Below, piece by piece: positions 1 to 6,908 of a stretch of DNA of 21,468 nucleotides (positions are counted from its first letter, which is position 1; each line of letters opens with the position of its first letter). Both the position numbers and the translations under genes were made by a program. Source of the stretch: a virus; IMG/VR virus record IMGVR_UViG_3300042691_003192, positions 1 through 21,468 of that record; one strand, 5' to 3'. The notes beneath the pieces are model-generated. The model was not told the DNA's origin, did not search any database, and was given only the letters and a program-made list of their open reading frames with translations.

Positions 1-10
1 ATATACTATA

Positions 11-36
11 GAAGACCCGTTCAAACGGGTCTTTTC
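11..36 (+). terminator. Rho-independent terminator at left edge
   Basis: A perfect 9-bp stem (12-20 with 25-33) with a TCAA loop is followed by TTTT. It probably ends a plus-strand transcript entering from outside the window. The stem is symmetric enough to work in both directions. Confidence 0.75.
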
Positions 37-41
37 CGAGT

Positions 42-68
42 GGGTTGGGAAAGTATTTTCCCGAACCC
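42..68. other. Long hairpin next to the left terminator
   Basis: GGGTT and GGGAAA (42-52) pair with TTTCCC and AACCC (57-62 and 64-68). This gives an 11-bp stem with one bulged G at 63 and a GTAT loop. No T-tract follows, so it is not a standard terminator. It could be an RNA processing or regulatory structure, or part of an origin-like region. Role unknown. Confidence 0.5.
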
Positions 69-87
69 CTATATATTAAGCGTACGA

Positions 88-103
88 TGTGACCTAAGTC
101 ACA
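88..103. promoter_or_regulatory. Crp/GlxR-type operator palindrome
   Basis: TGTGACCTAAGTCACA is a perfect inverted repeat. It matches the known actinobacterial cAMP-receptor (Crp/GlxR) consensus TGTGA-NN-TA-NN-TCACA at every fixed base. It lies in the non-coding leader, about 450 nt before the first plus-strand gene. A role in host cAMP-dependent control of the left arm is inference; no clear promoter was recognised beside it. Confidence 0.45.
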
Positions 104-111
104 CTCTCCGA

Positions 112-130
112 GGAGTACTAAAAGTACTCT
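112..130. other. 8-bp inverted repeat in leader
   Basis: GGAGTACT (112-119) and AGTACTCT (123-130) form an 8-bp stem (one G-T pair) around an AAA loop. A G-run follows (131-138), not a T-run, so this is an operator or RNA hairpin rather than a terminator. Function unknown. Confidence 0.4.
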
Positions 131-386
131 GAGGGGGGGTATTAAATATAACAGAAAATTATTATGGGAGTATATATACATAATACCTCGCGGTTTTAAA
201 AAACCACGGCTCAAATCATGCGCTTTCAGCGCTTATTCTGGCTTTATTTATTCTTGGCGTTAATTGTTAATGAGCAACTATCTGCATGGAGAATCTTTAA
301 ATGAATTAGGGGGGAATAAATAAAATAAATCTAGGGGAAAGAGATAGGGGAAAAGTAATTGAATCTTCAACTATCTATCCGCGCCA
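131..386. other. AT-rich leader without a convincing gene
   Basis: Together with the flanking hairpins, positions 37-549 contain no gene I can support. This stretch is AT-rich and holds three short direct repeats of the form TAGGGG(GG)AA near 307, 332 and 345. An inverted copy (CCCCTAG) lies near 447. Iterated G-blocks in AT-rich DNA can mark a replication or regulatory region, but nothing here identifies one. Confidence 0.3.
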
Positions 387-400
387 TTCGGCTAACCGAA
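387..400 (+). repeat. Operator-like repeat, copy 1
   Basis: Exact copy of TTCGGCTAACCGAA (TTCGG/CCGAA arms, CTAA centre). It lies inside the leader, about 150 nt before the first gene and not next to a start codon. Tandem CGCTCACG-like repeats follow it. Confidence 0.8.
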
Positions 401-482
401 CGCGCTCACGCTCACGCGCCCGCCGCTTTCCTTGCGACACGCCCAACCCCTAGACCTTCCCCGATTAGGTGAAAACTGGTTC

Positions 483-502
483 ATGCATTACAATAAATGC
501 AT
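483..502. other. 7-bp inverted repeat before the first gene
   Basis: ATGCATT (483-489) and AATGCAT (496-502) are inverted around a 6-nt spacer. It sits 14 nt upstream of repeat copy 2, so the first gene has stacked palindromes upstream. Confidence 0.4.
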
Positions 503-503
503 A

Positions 504-530
504 CCGAACAACACCGTTCGGCTAACCGAA
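504..530 (+). repeat. Operator-like repeat, copy 2, with extra half-site
   Basis: TTCGGCTAACCGAA occupies 517-530, ending 19 nt before the start codon at 550. An additional half-site CCGAAC (504-509) faces GTTCGG (516-521) across 6 nt. Three half-sites are thus arrayed before the gene, as in cooperative operators. Confidence 0.75.
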
Positions 531-549
531 TAGAAAAGGAACTACCCAA

Positions 550-1161
550 ATGGCAACAACACCAAAGCAAGCAAAAGCACCAAAGCCAGCACTATCAGCA
601 CCAAAGATTAAAAGCGCTTGGATAAAGGTATGCGACACATCCATCAAGAGTGAGAACGAAATCGTGAAGGCGATTGAAAATCTCTCATCCGTCATGGTTT
701 TGGAATCTCGCTTATCTGTTGCAGACCAAAAGCGATTTATCAAAGGCCTTGAAGGAGAAGGCGCTGTGTCTTCATTCGTGAAATCAAGCCATGCGCCAGC
801 GCTTCCAACATGGTCAAAGTTACGCGCTCTACATGCTGATTTCTGCTCACTACCTATCGCAAAGCAACTCTCCACCGCGTCTGCCTCGTATGACCTTCTA
901 GGCGCTGGCAAAGGTGAGCAGATTAAGTCACTAGATGCGCTCACTACCGAAATCTCAAGAGAGCGCAAAGAGAAGGCAAGCAAGGCAAAGGCAAGCAATG
1001 GCGAGACACCAAAGGCAAAGGCACCAAAGTCCAACGCCGAAACCTTGAAATCTATCCTCGCTTACATCACCGCGCTAGACATGGCGGAACTTACAGACAT
1101 TGAGGAAGGCTACATCGCCGAAATTGAATCAACTATAAGTTACAAAATGGCAAGCGCATAA
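550..1161 (+). CDS. Lys/Ala-rich hypothetical protein
   Basis: 203 aa, start supported by AAAAGGA about 8 nt upstream. I do not recognise a family. The N-terminus (residues 1-22) and a central-to-C-terminal segment (about 135-165) are repetitive in Lys, Ala and Pro (KAKAP-type motifs), like histone H1-like tails. The regions between look helical, and the C-terminal 40 residues are acidic (ELTDIEEGYIAEIE). A nucleic-acid-binding or nucleoid-like role is possible but is inference from composition. It is the first gene of the plus-strand arm, with its own upstream palindromes and a strong terminator directly after it, so it is probably a separate, independently controlled transcript. Confidence 0.8.
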   Translation: MATTPKQAKAPKPALSAPKIKSAWIKVCDTSIKSENEIVKAIENLSSVMVLESRLSVADQKRFIKGLEGEGAVSSFVKSSHAPALPTWSKLRALHADFCSLPIAKQLSTASASYDLLGAGKGEQIKSLDALTTEISRERKEKASKAKASNGETPKAKAPKSNAETLKSILAYITALDMAELTDIEEGYIAEIESTISYKMASA

Positions 1162-1174
1162 CCAAAGAGAATAG

Positions 1175-1208
1175 CCTCACCCCTTCGGGGGTGGGGTTAT
1201 TTTTTTGC
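1175..1208 (+). terminator. Strong rho-independent terminator
   Basis: A 9-bp GC-rich stem (1175-1183 with 1188-1196, one G-T pair) is closed by a TTCG tetraloop and followed by TTATTTTTTT. It ends the first plus-strand transcript. Confidence 0.92.
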
Positions 1209-1300
1209 CCAAAAAATCCGACACAAACCAACACAAACTATTAAACGAACGATGGCTGGCGCCGACCTGCGAATGATGAGTGCCACCGAACTATGTCACG

Positions 1301-1314
1301 TTCGGCTAACCGAA
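1301..1314 (+). repeat. Operator-like repeat, copy 3
   Basis: Exact TTCGGCTAACCGAA, extended to 6-bp arms by flanking G and C. It lies between the terminator and copy 4, about 80 nt upstream of copy 4, with no convincing gene directly after it. Copies 3 and 4 may act as a pair. Confidence 0.8.
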
Positions 1315-1394
1315 CACCATAGACAAAAACCTATTTCGATGCTAGACTTATGCCTATCAGCAAGGCTCACGCCTTATTGAAAACCTAATAACCG

Positions 1395-1408
1395 TTCGGC
1401 TAACCGAA
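1395..1408 (+). repeat. Operator-like repeat, copy 4
   Basis: Exact TTCGGCTAACCGAA with flanking G/C. It ends 16 nt before the ATG at 1425, just upstream of the GGAG ribosome binding site. Confidence 0.8.
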
Positions 1409-1424
1409 CAGAATGGAGATGGAC

Positions 1425-1550
1425 ATGATTGACCTAGAACTAAGCGCACACCTTGAAGTTCAGACTAACATTCTGAATGAGAAGCGTGCAGAGCGTGAAC
1501 GACAAGAGCGTGGCATCAAAGCCATGCAGGAAGCAACTAACAAGGCTTGA
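1425..1550 (+). CDS. Small charged helical peptide
   Basis: 41 aa (MIDLELSAHLEV... ATNKA). GGAG lies 7 nt upstream of the ATG. The middle is dense in Glu, Arg and Gln (RAERERQERG), suggesting a single amphipathic or coiled-coil helix. No family recognised. It is flanked by a repeat copy upstream and the tRNA-like element downstream. Confidence rests on the ribosome binding site, the repeat placed as before other genes here, and codon use like its neighbours. Confidence 0.55.
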   Translation: MIDLELSAHLEVQTNILNEKRAERERQERGIKAMQEATNKA

Positions 1551-1592
1551 CCCAAAGTTAGTTCGCTGGTAAAATTAAGGTATTAAGCGGAT

Positions 1593-1626
1593 AGCCTAGT
1601 CTATGAATTTGGGCATACGCTAGGCT
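1593..1626 (+). ncRNA. Stem-loop before the tRNA-like element
   Basis: AGCCTAG (1593-1599) pairs perfectly with CTAGGCT (1620-1626) around a 20-nt loop. It lies 4 nt upstream of the tRNA-like fold, so the two may form one structured RNA. No known RNA family recognised. Confidence 0.35.
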
Positions 1627-1630
1627 GGTG

Positions 1631-1677
1631 GCTCACTCTGGTGATTGTGGATGCAGGTTCGATTCCTGCGGTGAGCG
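1631..1677 (+). ncRNA. tRNA-like element lacking D and anticodon arms
   Basis: A canonical T-arm is present: GCAGG/CCTGC stem (1653-1657 with 1665-1669) and TTCGATT loop. It is directly followed by a 7-nt acceptor-like strand (1670-1676) that pairs with 1631-1637 (six Watson-Crick pairs and one G-T). Only 15 nt lie between acceptor and T-arm, so D and anticodon arms cannot form, and no CCA is encoded. It may be a tRNA remnant, an attP core copied from a host tRNA 3' end, or a tRNA mimic. It is not a normal tRNA. Confidence 0.45.
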
Positions 1678-1680
1678 CGT

Positions 1681-1697
1681 GATAACAAATTGTTATC
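1681..1697. promoter_or_regulatory. Perfect 17-bp palindrome, operator-like
   Basis: GATAACAAATTGTTATC is a perfect inverted repeat with 8-nt arms around one A. It lies 3 nt upstream of repeat copy 5 and 36 nt before the gene at 1734. Its size and symmetry suit a dimeric HTH repressor. No matching regulator gene was recognised. Confidence 0.4.
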
Positions 1698-1700
1698 CTG

Positions 1701-1714
1701 TTCGGCTAACCGAA
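1701..1714 (+). repeat. Operator-like repeat, copy 5
   Basis: Exact TTCGGCTAACCGAA with flanking G/C. It ends 19 nt before the ATG at 1734 and directly follows the 1681-1697 palindrome. Confidence 0.8.
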
Positions 1715-1733
1715 CGAACTGAAAGGTAAGTAA

Positions 1734-1886
1734 ATGGAACTGTTCAACCTAGAGATAAGCAAGTGGGGCATTGACTTGCAGACATACTTTGGTGATGTGT
1801 ACCTGTATCACCGAGCATGGATAACAGTGCTTGCTATTGTTGTTGTACTTCGTGGGGCTAAGTTAATCAGGCAGGCGGTACGATAA
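1734..1886 (+). CDS. Small single-pass membrane protein
   Basis: 50 aa. GAAAGG lies about 8 nt upstream. Residues about 29-39 (WITVLAIVVVL) are strongly hydrophobic and followed by a basic tail (RGAKLIRQAVR). This suggests one membrane helix with a cytoplasmic C-terminus by the positive-inside rule. No family recognised. Its stop codon overlaps the next start (TAATG), so it is translationally coupled to the gene at 1886. Confidence 0.6.
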   Translation: MELFNLEISKWGIDLQTYFGDVYLYHRAWITVLAIVVVLRGAKLIRQAVR

Positions 1887-2071
1887 TGTACCCAACGGTG
1901 GATGAACTTGTAGCCAACGGTATTTCCGACACAAACTTATGGGAATCCCGTCTCGACTACCAACTTGTCCAAGAAATTCTAGGCCATGACCTCTCAGAAG
2001 ATGAGTGGTTAGAACTTGTGGATGCTTTGGATGATGCCGTATTCCAAATTGTAATGAGTTTTCAGAGATGA
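1886..2071 (+). CDS. Small acidic hypothetical protein
   Basis: 61 aa, acidic and predicted helical (for example LGHDLSEDEWLELVDALDDAV). The start overlaps the preceding stop (TAATG) and the 3' end overlaps the next gene's start by 4 nt (ATGA), so it sits in a coupled three-gene cluster. No domain recognised. The cluster position and overlapping starts argue that it is expressed. Confidence 0.65.
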   Translation: MYPTVDELVANGISDTNLWESRLDYQLVQEILGHDLSEDEWLELVDALDDAVFQIVMSFQR

Positions 2072-2238
2072 TTACCGTCACATTTAGCGATGCTGAGGCG
2101 AACCTAGTGCGACAAGCGCTAAGGGCTGAGCATGACCGCATGGTGAAGCAAGGGTATGCAGGATTGGCCAAAGTAGTGGATAGCGCCAGAGATACCATGT
2201 CAAATGCCATGATTGACAAGAACCTAGTTGCAAAGTAG
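2068..2238 (+). CDS. Small helical hypothetical protein
   Basis: 56 aa (MITVTFSDAE... NLVAK), starting in an ATGA overlap with the upstream stop; TTTTCAGAG precedes it. A short beta-like start (MITVTFS) is followed by a charged helix with hydrophobic spacing. No family recognised. It ends 65 nt before the amidoligase gene, with repeat copy 6 between them. Confidence 0.55.
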   Translation: MITVTFSDAEANLVRQALRAEHDRMVKQGYAGLAKVVDSARDTMSNAMIDKNLVAK

Positions 2239-2273
2239 ACTATGCTTATTGCAAATCGCAATGAGTTCGATTA

Positions 2274-2287
2274 TTCGGCTAACCGAA
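2274..2287 (+). repeat. Operator-like repeat, copy 6
   Basis: Exact TTCGGCTAACCGAA with flanking A/T that extend the pairing. It ends 16 nt before the amidoligase start codon, just upstream of the AAGGGAAAG ribosome binding site. Confidence 0.8.
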
Positions 2288-2303
2288 TGAGAAGGGAAAG
2301 AAA

Positions 2304-3554
2304 ATGACAGATGAAGTTGATGATGTTGTAGTATTCAGTTGTTCAGTATGCGAATACGAAACTGATGAAGATAACCTAATCACGACAGAATGGAACGACA
2401 TAGTTTGCAACGATTGCGTTCAAGTTTGCCAGCGTTGCGATACGATAGGTTCCACCAATGATAACTTCAACATGGTAGATGGCAATCATCTATGGTGTGA
2501 AGGCTGTGTAGATAGAATCGCATCTTGGTGTGATTCATGTGCAGAGTACAACTCTGACGGCTCATCTTATGTCTCAGATAGAGGTGAGTACTGGTGTGGT
2601 GGTTGCCTAGACGGTGCTTACTATTGTGAGGATTGCGATGAATGGAATAATGAAGGGTGCGATAGATGCTCAGAGGATACTTACAATGGCAATCGTATTG
2701 TCCATGACTATTCATACCGACCTGATGCTATCTTCCATAGCACCAAGAAGGATGAGCGCCTATTCTTTGGCCTAGAGATAGAAGTAGAAGGCTGGGAAGA
2801 CAGGTCTGCCTCAGCCATGCACGCCTATCAACTAGAAGGAATGGAGTTAGCCTATCTAAAGCATGACGGCTCTCTCAATGACGGCTTCGAGATAGTCACA
2901 CATCCTATGTCTCATGACTTCTTCAAGAATGAGGCTACCGATTTATGGACAGTGCTAGAAGATTTACGCAGTAAGTCTGGCATGAGAGTTAAGTCATGGA
3001 ATACCCGTACTTGTGGCTTACACATTCACATCTCACGCACTGGGTTTAATGGTGGCGCACACATGCACCGCTTTCTTAACCTTGTCTATTCTAACCCTCA
3101 GTTCTACTCGACCTTAGCAGGTCGTGAGTCTGACCAATGGGCTAAGTTCACTGACATCTATCAGTCAGAATACAAGCGCGATGAAAACGGTGAGCGTATC
3201 TGGGACATGGATAATGGATACGTTGTTGACCGTAAGCGTACCTTCAAGCACAAGTTAAGTACAGACCACAATTCAGACCGCTATTCAGCAGTAAATACCA
3301 ACAATCAAGCAACACTAGAGATGCGTATCTTCCGAGGTAGCATCAACGGTGACACCATCAAAGCCCATTTAGACTTAGCACATGCCAGTGTTGAGTACAC
3401 CCGAACTCTTACTGTGCAAGACATCCAACAAGGTGCGCTTAGTGCAGACAACTTCATGTGGTATGTATTTCAGAATGAGACACTATACCCAGAACTTTCA
3501 GCCCGTATAGATAGACTAGTCGTTCGGTTAGCCGAACAGAATGTGAGTGCATAA
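2304..3554 (+). CDS. Zinc-finger amidoligase-family protein
   Basis: 416 aa. Residues 13-122 hold eight CxxC pairs (C13/16, 35/38, 42/45, 65/68, 76/79, 98/101, 108/111, 119/122), enough for about four structural zinc sites in a LIM- or treble-clef-like array. Residues about 154-400 match the amidoligase (COOH-NH2 ligase, Amidoligase_2-like) pattern: GLEIEVE at 156-162, HDGSL and EIVTHPMS near 187-203, CGLHIHIS at 237-244, and RYSAVN then TLEMRIFRGS near 326-346. Members of this glutamine-synthetase-related fold are predicted to form amide bonds using ATP. The next gene is a class II glutamine amidotransferase, which could supply ammonia; this pairing is known for the family. Substrate unknown. 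The zinc array may recognise a protein or nucleic-acid target. Repeat copy 7 lies inside the 3' end of the coding region. Confidence 0.82.
   Translation: MTDEVDDVVVFSCSVCEYETDEDNLITTEWNDIVCNDCVQVCQRCDTIGSTNDNFNMVDGNHLWCEGCVDRIASWCDSCAEYNSDGSSYVSDRGEYWCGGCLDGAYYCEDCDEWNNEGCDRCSEDTYNGNRIVHDYSYRPDAIFHSTKKDERLFFGLEIEVEGWEDRSASAMHAYQLEGMELAYLKHDGSLNDGFEIVTHPMSHDFFKNEATDLWTVLEDLRSKSGMRVKSWNTRTCGLHIHISRTGFNGGAHMHRFLNLVYSNPQFYSTLAGRESDQWAKFTDIYQSEYKRDENGERIWDMDNGYVVDRKRTFKHKLSTDHNSDRYSAVNTNNQATLEMRIFRGSINGDTIKAHLDLAHASVEYTRTLTVQDIQQGALSADNFMWYVFQNETLYPELSARIDRLVVRLAEQNVSA
3523..3536 (-). repeat. Operator-like repeat, copy 7 (reversed, in coding DNA)
   Basis: TTCGGTTAGCCGAA is the exact reverse complement of the common form, the only copy reversed at the centre. 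It lies within the last codons of the amidoligase gene and ends 17 nt before the amidotransferase start. This spacing matches the intergenic copies and implies selection for position despite overlapping coding sequence. Confidence 0.8.
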
Positions 3555-4390
3555 TGTGTTTACTAGTAGTAGCATCACCTAACTCAACACCTAAGAAGAA
3601 AGACTTAGAGTGTGCATCATGTAACAATCCGCATGGCTTCGGCTTTGCAGTAATCACGCCCAATGGCATTGTCACTGGTCGTGGTATGTCAGCCAAGAAA
3701 GTAATCAAGCAGTTCCTAGAAGTACGTAAGGAGTTTCCAGACAATTATGCTATGTTCCATGCTCGCTATGCTACGCATGGTGTCAAGAATGAGGATAACT
3801 GTCACCCGTTCAAGGTGCCTTATGATGCTACCTTTGCACCAGATACTTACCTAGCACACAATGGCGTGCTTGACATCAACATCAGCGCAGGAGATAGACG
3901 TAGCGATACGCGTATCTTTGCAGAGGATACATTACCTGCTATGGGTGGTGTCACTGCACTAGATGACGACCACGTATGGGCTATGGTTAGCAAGTGGGCA
4001 TTAGGTAGCAAGATTGTAATCTTTACTCTAGACCCTAACGCTAAGGAGACTTGCTACATCATCAACGAAAGTGCTGGTCACTGGGACAATGAGGGCATGT
4101 GGTGGTCTAACTCTACCTATAAGCAATCAGGTTGGTCTACTTATCTAGGTACACCTAGCGACACGCCAGCCTATGACAACCCATCAGTCTACGTAGACAG
4201 TGAGTGTATCAACTGCCAAGCCATTCCATTCGAGGATGCTAATCCTTACTACTGTGAGATGTGCATGTCATGTTATGATTGCTCTGGTATCTATTCAGAT
4301 ACATGCCTATGCTGGACACCAGAACAAGATAGATACTCATACAACAAGAAAGGTTCGGTTGCTCGTTATGATAACTACTTCGGATTCTAG
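3554..4390 (+). CDS. Class II glutamine amidotransferase
   Basis: 278 aa. The protein begins Met-Cys-Leu-Leu, placing Cys2 as the N-terminal nucleophile once Met is removed, which supports this start. Further Ntn-amidotransferase signatures are HARYATHG (69-76), AHNG (101-104) and SDT (117-119), which line the glutamine site in GATase II enzymes. The domain would hydrolyse glutamine to release ammonia. Residues 218-253 add eight cysteines (C218, 221, 234, 237, 240, 243, 251, 253), probably two zinc sites; this is not part of the usual domain. The start overlaps the amidoligase stop (TAATG), so the pair is coupled and probably works together, with ammonia passed to the ligase. The Cys-rich tail echoes the zinc array of the partner and may mediate their contact or share a target. 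Confidence 0.85.
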   Translation: MCLLVVASPNSTPKKKDLECASCNNPHGFGFAVITPNGIVTGRGMSAKKVIKQFLEVRKEFPDNYAMFHARYATHGVKNEDNCHPFKVPYDATFAPDTYLAHNGVLDINISAGDRRSDTRIFAEDTLPAMGGVTALDDDHVWAMVSKWALGSKIVIFTLDPNAKETCYIINESAGHWDNEGMWWSNSTYKQSGWSTYLGTPSDTPAYDNPSVYVDSECINCQAIPFEDANPYYCEMCMSCYDCSGIYSDTCLCWTPEQDRYSYNKKGSVARYDNYFGF

Positions 4391-4392
4391 TA

Positions 4393-4406
4393 TTCGGTTA
4401 ACCGAA
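4393..4406 (+). repeat. Operator-like repeat, copy 8 (fully symmetric)
   Basis: TTCGGTTAACCGAA, the only perfectly palindromic copy. It lies 2 nt after the amidotransferase stop and 36 nt before the ATG at 4443. A 12-nt stretch downstream (4417-4428, CCAACACAAACT) also occurs at 1228-1239. Confidence 0.75.
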
Positions 4407-4442
4407 CAGCAAAAATCCAACACAAACTTATGAGAGGAAGCC

Positions 4443-4595
4443 ATGACTACAGAACAGAAAGAACAGTTACGAGAAGTACTTATAGACTATCTACAAGTAC
4501 TTACAAGCACGACGGGACTGTACAAATCCGAATACGAAAAGATACAAAATGCACGTATAGCACAAGTCCGATTACTACTAAGGGAGGTAGCATGA
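4443..4595 (+). CDS. Small helical hypothetical protein
   Basis: 50 aa (MTTEQKEQLR... LLREVA). AGAGGAAG directly upstream makes 4443 a better start than the ATG at 4430, which opens a different, less protein-like frame. The sequence reads as one long charged helix with hydrophobic heptad-like spacing, possibly a coiled coil. The stop overlaps the next start (ATGA). No family recognised. Confidence 0.65.
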   Translation: MTTEQKEQLREVLIDYLQVLTSTTGLYKSEYEKIQNARIAQVRLLLREVA

Positions 4596-4696
4596 GTTAC
4601 GAGCCACGATTAGATGATGACATAGCACTAGGGATAGAACTGGAAGAAGAAGAGGACGATACGGGAGAACCAGATAGGATGTGGGGAGATGATTAG
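4592..4696 (+). CDS. Very acidic 34-aa peptide
   Basis: 34 aa (MSYEPRLDDD... MWGDD), roughly 40% Asp or Glu. AGGGAGG lies just upstream of the ATG at 4592, and ATGA overlap with the previous gene supports this start. The same frame is open back to 4430, but that extension is the out-of-frame shadow of the 50-aa gene and should not be joined to this peptide. Such acidic peptides can mimic DNA or bind basic proteins; this is speculation. Confidence 0.55.
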   Translation: MSYEPRLDDDIALGIELEEEEDDTGEPDRMWGDD

Positions 4697-5096
4697 TCAA
4701 CTAACTGGAGGCCTATGTACTCTGGATGATAATCCTGATGCGTGGTTTCCCACGATAGGTAACGGCAACGTTACTACAATGACACAGCGAGCACTTCCAA
4801 CGATTAAGTATGCTATTGGCGTATGCAATAGATGCCCTATCAGTGAGACGTGTTTAGAAGAAGGTATGAAGCCCGAGAACCTTGCTCATGGCATTTGGGG
4901 TGGCTTACTATCTGGACAGAGAATAGCAATCGCTAAAGAACGAGGGCTTGACTATCGCGTTGACCCTTACAATACAGGCAGGAAGGTTGGACCTAGATAT
5001 ACAGATGAAGTGGGGCCTAGTGGCAAGGTAACCGCTGACGAAGAAGAAGCATCAATGATATTCTTGAACAGGGTTAGACCTTACTTGGAGGTGTAA
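4689..5096 (+). CDS. WhiB-like iron-sulfur transcription regulator
   Basis: 135 aa. Four cysteines, C10, C46, C49 and C55, fit the WhiB pattern (C-Xn-C-X2-C-X5-C) that binds a [4Fe-4S] cluster. The diagnostic G[I/V]WGG turn follows at residues 68-72, then a basic stretch. WhiB proteins are confined to actinobacteria and their phages and bind the primary sigma factor to alter promoter choice. The C-terminal 45 residues are acidic and not part of the core family. The start overlaps the acidic peptide gene by 8 nt with GGGGAG upstream. A likely job is redirecting host transcription or, as known for some phage WhiB proteins, interfering with a host WhiB (inference). Confidence 0.92.
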   Translation: MISQLTGGLCTLDDNPDAWFPTIGNGNVTTMTQRALPTIKYAIGVCNRCPISETCLEEGMKPENLAHGIWGGLLSGQRIAIAKERGLDYRVDPYNTGRKVGPRYTDEVGPSGKVTADEEEASMIFLNRVRPYLEV

Positions 5097-5097
5097 T

Positions 5098-5490
5098 ATG
5101 TACAAAAAGATAGCACTCTTGCTTGTCATTCTTTTAGTGGTAAGTTTTATGAGTCGTTCGGCTAACCGAATGGAGCAGAAGATAACACCAGCAAGAGAAT
5201 GGCAGATTGCAGACAGTAAAGCCTATGCTAATGATGTAGTGCAAGCATGGGCGGATAATCAGTACCGATGTCTTCATAAGTTATGGACAAAGGAATCCAA
5301 CTGGAGGCATCAGGCATACAACAAGATAAAGGTGATGGGCAAGAACGCTGGAGGTATACCTCAGGTTTTAGGGATGGACCCTAAGACTCCACCGCCATTA
5401 CAAATTGACAGGGGCTTTGCATATATCATGCACAGATATGGCACGCCTTGTATGGCATGGAAATTTCATCAAAAGAATAACTGGTACTAA
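5098..5490 (+). CDS. Secreted lytic-transglycosylase-like protein
   Basis: 130 aa. Residues 4-18 form a hydrophobic signal or anchor segment after a Lys pair (MYKKIALLLVILLVVSF). The C-terminal part (about 45-130) resembles the lysozyme-like domain of soluble lytic transglycosylases and Rpf-type proteins: a catalytic-type Glu66 in LWTKESNW, then AGGIPQ, an ordered YIMHRYGTPCMAW segment and a final NNWY. C58 and C118 could form a disulfide outside the cell. It probably cleaves peptidoglycan glycan strands. It is far from the lysis cassette, so it may serve in cell-wall remodelling rather than final lysis. Repeat copy 9 lies inside the gene, coding residues 20-24 just after the hydrophobic segment. 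Confidence 0.78.
   Translation: MYKKIALLLVILLVVSFMSRSANRMEQKITPAREWQIADSKAYANDVVQAWADNQYRCLHKLWTKESNWRHQAYNKIKVMGKNAGGIPQVLGMDPKTPPPLQIDRGFAYIMHRYGTPCMAWKFHQKNNWY
5157..5170 (+). repeat. Operator-like repeat, copy 9 (in coding DNA)
   Basis: Exact TTCGGCTAACCGAA inside the 5' part of the transglycosylase-like gene, 59 nt after its start. Unlike most copies it does not precede a start codon. It is the last copy seen in the window. Confidence 0.8.
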
Positions 5491-5675
5491 TGCCTACATA
5501 TGATTTCAAATGTAGTAAATGTGGTGCGACGAGAGAAGTATTCATCCACCATAAAGAATACGAGAAGTATGTCGTAAGGTGCGATACCTTAAATTGTTAC
5601 AAACCTATGGAGCGTATCTTCTCAGCACCAGCAATTAAGTTCAATGGCTCAGGGTTCTACTCGACAGGAGGATAG
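5490..5675 (+). CDS. FmdB-type zinc ribbon protein
   Basis: 61 aa. The start MPTYDFKC and the cysteines C8, C11, C31 and C36 match the FmdB regulatory-protein zinc ribbon, as does the end (AIKFNGSGFY). This family is found across bacteria and in many actinophages; its molecular role is not settled. The start overlaps the preceding stop (TAATG) and the stop abuts the next ATG, so it belongs to the same operon. Confidence 0.88.
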   Translation: MPTYDFKCSKCGATREVFIHHKEYEKYVVRCDTLNCYKPMERIFSAPAIKFNGSGFYSTGG

Positions 5676-5789
5676 ATGACAGAAGATGAGATGCAAGATT
5701 TACAGGCAAGCATCAAGGAAGGCATCGAAGAATACTTTGAGGCGTATGATTGGGATAGCAAGTTCAAACAATACTTGGAGGAGCGATGA
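5676..5789 (+). CDS. Small acidic helical peptide
   Basis: 37 aa (MTEDEMQDLQ... YLEER), acidic and helical, with AGGAGG just upstream of the ATG. It begins immediately after the zinc-ribbon stop and ends in an ATGA overlap with the next gene. No family recognised. Confidence 0.6.
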   Translation: MTEDEMQDLQASIKEGIEEYFEAYDWDSKFKQYLEER

Positions 5790-6211
5790 AAGATAGCAAC
5801 TGGGACCTAGACCTTAGGTCAGGCATAGAAGGTGAGAGTAGGATTGCAGACTTACTACACCTAGATACAGTAGAAGTTAAAACAGATAGACGATGGGTGG
5901 AAACTGGCAACCTATACATAGAGACAGAGTGTTACTATCAAAACGATAGTGCTTGGAAACCATCAGGCATTAGAGTTAGTAAGGCTACGCACTGGGCTTT
6001 CATGCTAGAAGATGCTGCACTTATTGTACCCTTGCATAGGCTTGCAGAATATGTATACAGTTCTGGTAAAGCAATTACCTGTGACATACAACCCAACCCA
6101 TCAAGGGGTTATCTAATTAAGGCTAGTGGTTTAATAGAGTATATTAAGTATGCTCGCGCTAACGAGATTGCAGAACATGAAGAACATGAAAGATGGGTGA
6201 GGTTTGGATAA
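5786..6211 (+). CDS. PD-(D/E)XK-like nuclease-fold protein
   Basis: 141 aa. A Glu early in the domain (EGE near residue 17), E30-V-K32 followed by D34, and a GNLYIE strand (41-46) fit the core of small restriction-endonuclease-fold proteins of phages. The middle (residues 50-90) has HWAFMLEDAALIVPL, a typical beta-alpha segment. DNA cleavage is predicted from the motif only. It is the last plus-strand gene of this arm; its stop lies 7 nt from the stop of the convergent sigma-like gene, with no obvious terminator between. Confidence 0.65.
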   Translation: MKDSNWDLDLRSGIEGESRIADLLHLDTVEVKTDRRWVETGNLYIETECYYQNDSAWKPSGIRVSKATHWAFMLEDAALIVPLHRLAEYVYSSGKAITCDIQPNPSRGYLIKASGLIEYIKYARANEIAEHEEHERWVRFG

Positions 6212-6218
6212 GGAAACG

Positions 6219-6908
6219 TTAATCGGATTCCTGTCCTTGTTCTCTATCTTCATTACTGTCGGGTTCATCTTGCCCTACTTGTTCTGTTTCGTCTTTATCT
6301 AGATAAGAACGGAAACCGCCAAGCCTAGTGATGAGTTTTTTAATTGCACGATTATGTCTCATACGTGCAGCATCATCACTAGGTAAGGCGAGTTCTTCTG
6401 CAATACCAGCATACGATAAAGAGTTTGCATACTTGTGGTAAAGAATATGTTTATCCTCTGTATTTAATTTCAGATATGCAGCCTTAATCTCAGCCATCAT
6501 AGCCATCATATTGCCACCCTCTGCTGGAGCAGACGGCTTGCTAGGCATACCTAAGTTAAGCACTGGAGCATCTGTTACATCTCCACGTAGTATTGAGGGA
6601 AGCAAGGCTTCAACAATCTCTGGCTCATAGAAGTATAAATCAGAAGGCTCATAGCCTAATGACTTAGCCTTCCAGTATTGGCAATAGTCCAATGCTTGGT
6701 TACGTAGTGAACGATACAATAAGTTCTGAGCAGACTTCTTGCTGAATGCTTCCCACTCTGTCAACTTCCTAGGATGCGACACAAACCATTCATAGAGCGA
6801 CTGCTTGATATCTTCGCGTGCGACCATTGTATACTTCTTGCTGTATTCATCAGCAACATGTGCAACAATGTAATCCCACGGTTCAATGCGGTCCCAACTG
6901 ACTACCAT
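6219..6908 (-). CDS. Sigma-factor-like HTH protein
   Basis: About 229 aa from the ATG at 6908; a TTG at 6914 has a better-spaced AAGGA and is an alternative. The C-terminal half contains a sigma-70 region 4-type helix-turn-helix: LNTEDKHILYHKYANSLSYAGIAEEL followed by an Arg/Asn-rich recognition helix (about residues 150-200). The N-terminus is helical and aromatic-rich but lacks a clear region 2. The last 30 residues are acidic and low-complexity. Similar proteins are common in actinophages and may redirect or tune RNA polymerase. It is the last gene of the long minus-strand operon and overlaps the phosphoesterase gene by 7 nt. Confidence 0.7.
   Translation of the reverse strand: MVVSWDRIEPWDYIVAHVADEYSKKYTMVAREDIKQSLYEWFVSHPRKLTEWEAFSKKSAQNLLYRSLRNQALDYCQYWKAKSLGYEPSDLYFYEPEIVEALLPSILRGDVTDAPVLNLGMPSKPSAPAEGGNMMAMMAEIKAAYLKLNTEDKHILYHKYANSLSYAGIAEELALPSDDAARMRHNRAIKKLITRLGGFRSYLDKDETEQVGQDEPDSNEDREQGQESD

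Follow-up and report, generated by a model that had tools for sequence, protein, structure and literature searches.

Positions 1593-1679 of the window (the whole stretch of viral DNA that was analysed, 21,468 nucleotides, positions 1 to 21,468 of IMG/VR record IMGVR_UViG_3300042691_003192) are one member of a conserved structured RNA family, as the comparison of its members shows; no match to the family was found in Rfam release 15, and no publication on it was found. The layout of the family is promoter, short leader, 5' hairpin (P1), GGTG, acceptor 5' strand, linker, T-arm, acceptor 3' strand and GCG (Table 1). We consider it rather probable that the element is a phage-encoded structured RNA which has its own vegetative-type promoter and acts as an acceptor/T-arm mimic recognised by the tRNA-handling enzymes of the host. 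'Ca. Nanopelagicales' belong to the most abundant bacteria of fresh waters, and to our knowledge little has been established about the means by which their phages gain control of the host. If true, a tRNA mimic that is universal in a phage clade, present in single copy and driven by a promoter would be a new kind of phage RNA tool, and a natural, near-minimal acceptor/T-arm minihelix makes recognition by RNase P, RNase Z, the CCA-adding enzyme and EF-Tu directly testable.

Anatomy and covariation of the RNA element

All elements described in an earlier sequence-only reading were found within 1593-1677 by direct sequence check, including the perfect 7-bp upstream stem-loop (AGCCTAG at 1593-1599, CTAGGCT at 1620-1626) and the canonical T-arm (GCAGG-TTCGATT-CCTGC, 1653-1669). 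The composite helix of acceptor and T-arm was likewise present, but its division into 7 and 5 bp had to be revised, as the homologues show an acceptor stem of 6 bp and a T-stem of 6 bp. This is because G1670 pairs with T1652 (C-G, T-A or T-G in the family), while a seventh acceptor pair is excluded by the base at 1637, which is G in most members and thus unable to pair with G1670.

Table 1. Features of the RNA element and its flanks (window coordinates).
Feature	Position	Strand	Remarks
Sigma-70-type promoter	1547..1575	+	-35 TTGACC, 17-bp spacer ending TG-, -10 TAAAAT
Predicted transcription start region and single-stranded 5' leader, AGCGGAT motif	1580..1592	+	inferred from -10 spacing
5' hairpin P1, AGCCTAG/CTAGGCT, inner stem TATG (1602-1605)/CATA (1614-1617) closing loop AATTTGGG	1593..1626	+	compensatory changes
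Invariant GGTG linker, immediately 5' of acceptor	1627..1630	+	in all members
Acceptor stem 5' strand GCTCAC	1631..1636	+	pairs with 1671-1676
Linker in place of D and anticodon arms, class 2, TCTGGTGATTGTGGA	1637..1651	+	GG = D-loop-like G18G19
T-stem 5' strand TGCAGG, 6 bp	1652..1657	+	pairs CG/UA/UG, AU/GC/UA, GC/AU; 100% of cells paired
Canonical 7-nt T-loop TTCGATT	1658..1664	+	direct sequence; family consensus T[TG]C[AG]ANT
T-stem 3' strand (1665-1670) and acceptor 3' strand GTGAGC (1671-1676)	1665..1676	+	pairing
GCG after acceptor, CCA not encoded	1677..1679	+	GC kept in all members seen (L323: GCT)
Hairpin P4, GATAAC-AAATT-GTTATC	1681..1697	+	common, outside core; compensatory changes where present
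Palindrome GTTCGGCTAACCGAAC	1700..1715	+	phage-specific intergenic element, outside RNA core; 1 of 9 window copies

The anatomy of an acceptor stem joined to a 7-nt T-loop occurred once in the window, in comparison to a mean of 0.015 in 200 dinucleotide shuffles of the window (3 of the 200 had one), and neither ARAGORN nor Rfam at the gathering score made a call anywhere in the window. The folding energy of the single sequence was unremarkable (z of -1.0 for a 101-nt stretch, and -1.5 to -4.0 for longer stretches), so that the evidence for structure is comparative and not thermodynamic. To collect homologues, IMG/VR was scanned with exact and gapped patterns, which gave about 45 members ranging from near-identical to increasingly divergent copies, 37 of them distinct and aligned; a covariance model, R1, was also used, and its E-values are rough. 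Exactly one good R1 copy per record, in syntenic position, was found in 20 of 20 related phage records, many of which are fragments. A sample independent of the patterns was obtained by retrieving 26 loci through a 56-aa gene located about 0.4 kb downstream, and the RNA was present in 24 of them; in the remaining two (L318 and L328) the 56-aa gene lies at the edge of the fetched stretch, which ends before the RNA site. The GGTG was also found in the members retrieved through this neighbouring gene and not by pattern. In a loose pattern scan of genome contigs, the loci examined among the matches listed gave weak matches of at most 19 bits, which were taken as chance.

The results showed that 18 of 28 pairs in the 37 aligned sequences have changes on both sides and that 90.7% of pair cells are standard. 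None of 500 shuffles reached any of the five covariation measures, and when the partner was slid by 1 to 3 columns the pairing fell to 34% to 48%; the compensatory base changes thus exceed both chance and the slid controls, as in a conserved structured RNA. The low variation of the acceptor stem is due in part to the search patterns, in which most of this stem was fixed. Its fourth pair shows a C-G to U-A compensatory change in 5 members. The T-stem, which was not fixed by the patterns, is always paired, with GCAGG/CCTGC, GCAAG/CTTGC, GCTGG/CCAGC and GCGAG/CTCGC among its forms, and its identity changed 9 times on the tree of the neighbouring gene with every T-stem cell still paired. For P1, 4 of 6 outer pairs carry compensatory changes; the hairpin folds singly in most members and is register-shifted in a few, and its loop keeps TTGGG in most members and is entirely different in the L155/L156/L184 group. 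No conserved reading frame runs through the RNA, and the lengths of the linker differ by non-multiples of three. The DNA of the tRNA-like core is 76% to 100% identical to that of the window in phages where identity falls to as little as 26% to 55% for proteins encoded up to about 2 kb away. A lack of conservation had been named beforehand as an argument against an RNA role; conservation is present, and the outcome favours such a role. P4 was also considered as part of the RNA and was dropped from the core because several members do not have it (L004, L156, L172, L155, L184, L064 and L139).

Another feature of the family is the linker between acceptor and T-stem, which measures 12 to 18 nt in all members. 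Class 1 linkers are 12 nt long (GATAGGYAGTTA, with a GA[TA]AGG[CT]AGTTA-like form), class 2 linkers, including that of the window, are TCTGG-like and 15 to 18 nt long, and the L155/L156/L184 group has GAAGGG. In 37 of 37 members T55 in the T-loop is accompanied by G, and G55 by A, at the 18-like position of the linker, that is, the base preceding the linker's G. Five linker/T-loop changes were placed on the tree, all in step, 3 of them on well-supported branches (sign test p 0.25). Such co-switching is expected of a G18-psi55 elbow contact, and the linker is thus read as a stemless D-loop. The co-switching is partly module exchange by recombination: L004 and L152, near-identical phages by their amidoligases, differ in linker/T-loop class, an allelic swap inside the tRNA-like domain.

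Promoter, phages and hosts

The window promoter matches 10 of 12 consensus positions and is one of the two best scores on the + strand of positions 1-6300, and it alone of these two has the extended -10 TG. TTGnnn-17-TAnnnT was found at a fixed distance in 36 of 37 aligned members, the remaining one being truncated by the end of its contig, and the leader motif AGCGGATAGCC was found again in most family members. No intrinsic terminator was found 3' of the RNA, and a discrete small RNA would therefore depend on processing.

Among the genes of the window are those for WhiB, a sigma factor, a DnaB-like helicase and a primase, and the helicase is 81% identical to that of the Planktophila phages LanE43AprE7/F5 (E7/F5), which were the first phages isolated on 'Ca. 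Nanopelagicales', bacteria in which CRISPR-Cas is absent (PMC10202952). By the comparison of whiB, sigma factor and DnaB sequences, the RNA-bearing phages belong with the E7/F5 family. E7 and F5 themselves have neither the RNA nor any of the amidoligase/glutamine-amidotransferase (GATase) early block, so that the phage lifestyle is not strictly dependent on the RNA, and the host of the RNA-bearing group is inferred only. No isolate phage record carries the RNA. As the presumed host order we took a freshwater actinobacterial order represented by 201 genomes of about 0.8 to 2.2 Mb. In a complete 1.35-Mb genome of that order, in which 41 tRNA genes were found (G028), most tRNA genes have no encoded CCA, which makes the missing CCA in the RNA compatible with tRNA-type maturation; CCA could be added after processing.

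The first gene downstream of the RNA belongs to at least four unrelated families of small ORFs, and owing to this variability it is not any single gene that the RNA regulates. About 0.7 kb downstream of the RNA, the window encodes an Amidoligase_2 protein (2304-3554) followed by a glutamine-amidotransferase-like protein (3554-4390), the same pair as gp105/gp106 of mycobacteriophage Marvin, which is possibly a peptide or cell-wall modification system.

Relationship to tRNAs and candidate functions

In comparison to tRNA (RF00005), the RNA has a 12-bp acceptor/T-stem stack, which is the tRNA value, and a 7-nt T-loop. D-stem and anticodon arm are missing, and with them the cloverleaf; Rfam calls nothing. 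The RNA is unable to decode. A full cloverleaf was suggested by ARAGORN in two loci (L167 and L180, 'tRNA-Thr(GGT)') through pairing of P1 with the acceptor 3' strand, and this candidate was dropped; the acceptor proposed for L167 has one mismatch and one wobble, and the call was not repeated in other loci scanned. The minimal substrate of bacterial RNase P consists of an acceptor/T-arm minihelix preceded by a 5' leader. This enzyme cuts tRNA-like RNAs including the phage-encoded M3 and C4 RNAs, and the window RNA, also phage-encoded, resembles its minimal and natural non-tRNA substrates (phi80 M3, P1/P7 C4 and pre-4.5S RNA) in the 12-bp stacked helix, the T-loop and the 5' leader (PMC11143913). 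It differs from them in having GCG instead of an encoded RCCA, and in its D-loop-like linker, covarying 5' hairpin and own promoter. The anatomy fits that of an RNase P substrate, and cleavage is predicted. Similar to the tRNA-like domain of tmRNA (RF00023), the RNA combines an acceptor and a T-arm with a D-loop that has no D-stem, and there is no anticodon arm, while the mRNA-like domain, the tag reading frame and the CCA of tmRNA are absent from its about 100 nt; the match to RF00023 was weak and below threshold (8.7 bits in comparison to a gathering score of 47). The search for tmRNA and other Rfam families gave nothing at the gathering score and sub-threshold matches only. The bacterial Y RNA YrlA has a tRNA-mimicking module and is bound via Ro60/Rsr. 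The RNA is like YrlA in being a small bacterial or phage RNA that mimics the tRNA elbow and differs from it in domain order; YrlA and Y RNA were rejected as candidates, with a TROVE/Ro60 gene in 0 of 20 related records and no Rfam match.

The sequence-only reading had proposed three explanations, of which the tRNA mimic that engages host enzymes is favoured by the comparative evidence, namely conservation, covariation, promoter and synteny. The one according to which the element is an attP core for integration, identical to a host tRNA at its 3' end, found no support and is extremely improbable. The 17-nt T-arm of the window (GCAGGTTCGATTCCTGC) is indeed identical in many tRNAs of the host order, but the identity ends there: the T-arm with the 3' acceptor strand (24 nt, one R allowed) had 0 exact matches in 84,980 bacterial and archaeal species genomes, and in the 201 host-order genomes the best DNA match was 30 nt at 90%, the usual match being the shared T-arm only. 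Moreover, integrases were not found in related records, some of them fragments (tyrosine recombinase PF00589 in 0 of 20, serine recombinase PF00239 in 0 of 14), and an att core would neither have its own promoter nor keep its pairing while the sequence changes. The proposal that a phage tRNA has decayed here, with loss of the D and anticodon arms, draws on the likeness of the 3' half to host tRNAs, best to tRNA-Arg(CCG) at 24 to 27 bits, with AGGCAG-n-GCAGGTTCGATTCCTGC in common; R1 matches in the host order reached 20 to 27 bits, and the four examined were ordinary tRNA-Arg(CCG) genes. These hints suggest that the tRNA-like domain may descend from the 3' half of a tRNA. Decay itself was rejected, its probability being put very low, because the RNA has been kept, in single copy throughout the phage clade, with compensatory changes and a fixed promoter where the flanking proteins have diverged as far as described above, and compensatory evolution rules out decay.

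Under the tRNA-mimic reading, host tRNA-handling enzymes would recognise the 12-bp helix and the T-loop, and the D-loop-like linker would be able to dock on the T-loop. RNase P would most likely cut at 1630/1631, where the invariant GGUG meets the acceptor stem, and RNase Z would perhaps cut after G1677. The product might be a minihelix of about 47 nt which, acting in trans, would occupy a host factor that binds tRNA; or it might be an early-operon mRNA with its 5' end locked in a tRNA-like stem. A more specific form of the former, a trans-acting decoy of the tRNA elbow that would titrate a host factor which binds tRNA, or a defence which targets it, is put forward tentatively as one of the less likely possibilities; nearly identical phages differ by allelic exchange of the interior, linker and T-loop, as expected of a specificity-switching module in an arms race. 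Somewhat more plausible than this decoy, though still on the doubtful side, is a purely cis-acting 5' leader of the early operon, in which the fold would serve as a signal for both processing and stabilisation, giving an mRNA whose 5' end is base-paired, with no activity in trans. The promoter lies directly upstream, the hairpins P4 and P5 and the operon continue downstream in the same direction, and the absence of a terminator keeps this model alive. Against it, the same core precedes unrelated first genes and persists where the downstream intergenic sequence was replaced (L004, L156 and L172), and a mere roadblock would have no need of a canonical T-loop and of a D-loop-like linker that switches together with it. 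The conservation of elbow-like features, the irrelevance of the first gene and the exchange of classes between close relatives together favour an RNA that binds a partner. Minihelices are chargeable by some synthetases, and an aminoacylated minihelix could feed the amidoligase/GATase pair, which is found a short way downstream in nearly all loci whose contig extends far enough. This we regard as quite unlikely, since Marvin has a related pair and a search of 9.4 kb around it gave no match to the RNA, there is no encoded CCA, and charging is hypothetical.

Intergenic elements and other observations

In L004, L156 and L172 the sequence after GCG is replaced. Downstream of GCGCG these loci (L004:5580-5880 in the first) have a shared segment, ATGTATCGGTATGT...AATCAGCAGGG, with an extra small ORF, which shows that a recombination boundary coincides exactly with the 3' end of the RNA core.

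The 14-bp palindrome occurs in nine copies in the window (387, 517, 1301, 1395, 1701, 2274, 3523, 4393 and 5157) in comparison to 0.02 expected, mainly as TTCGGCTAACCGAA, with TTCGGTTAGCCGAA and TTCGGTTAACCGAA found once each. All copies are in the rightward early block, mostly just 5' of a ribosome-binding site, and they recall the stoperators or start-associated sequences of cluster K mycobacteriophages (PMC3203893). Related phages each have their own palindrome in about 3 to 9 copies (TCGGG.., GTCGG.., TCCGT.., TTCGT.., TGCCGTATAATACGGCA and CACTTTATAATAAAGTG). In addition, ordinary phage tRNA genes were observed in two relatives, for Met, Trp and Leu in one (L139:2426-2764) and for Arg in the other (L326:546-617).
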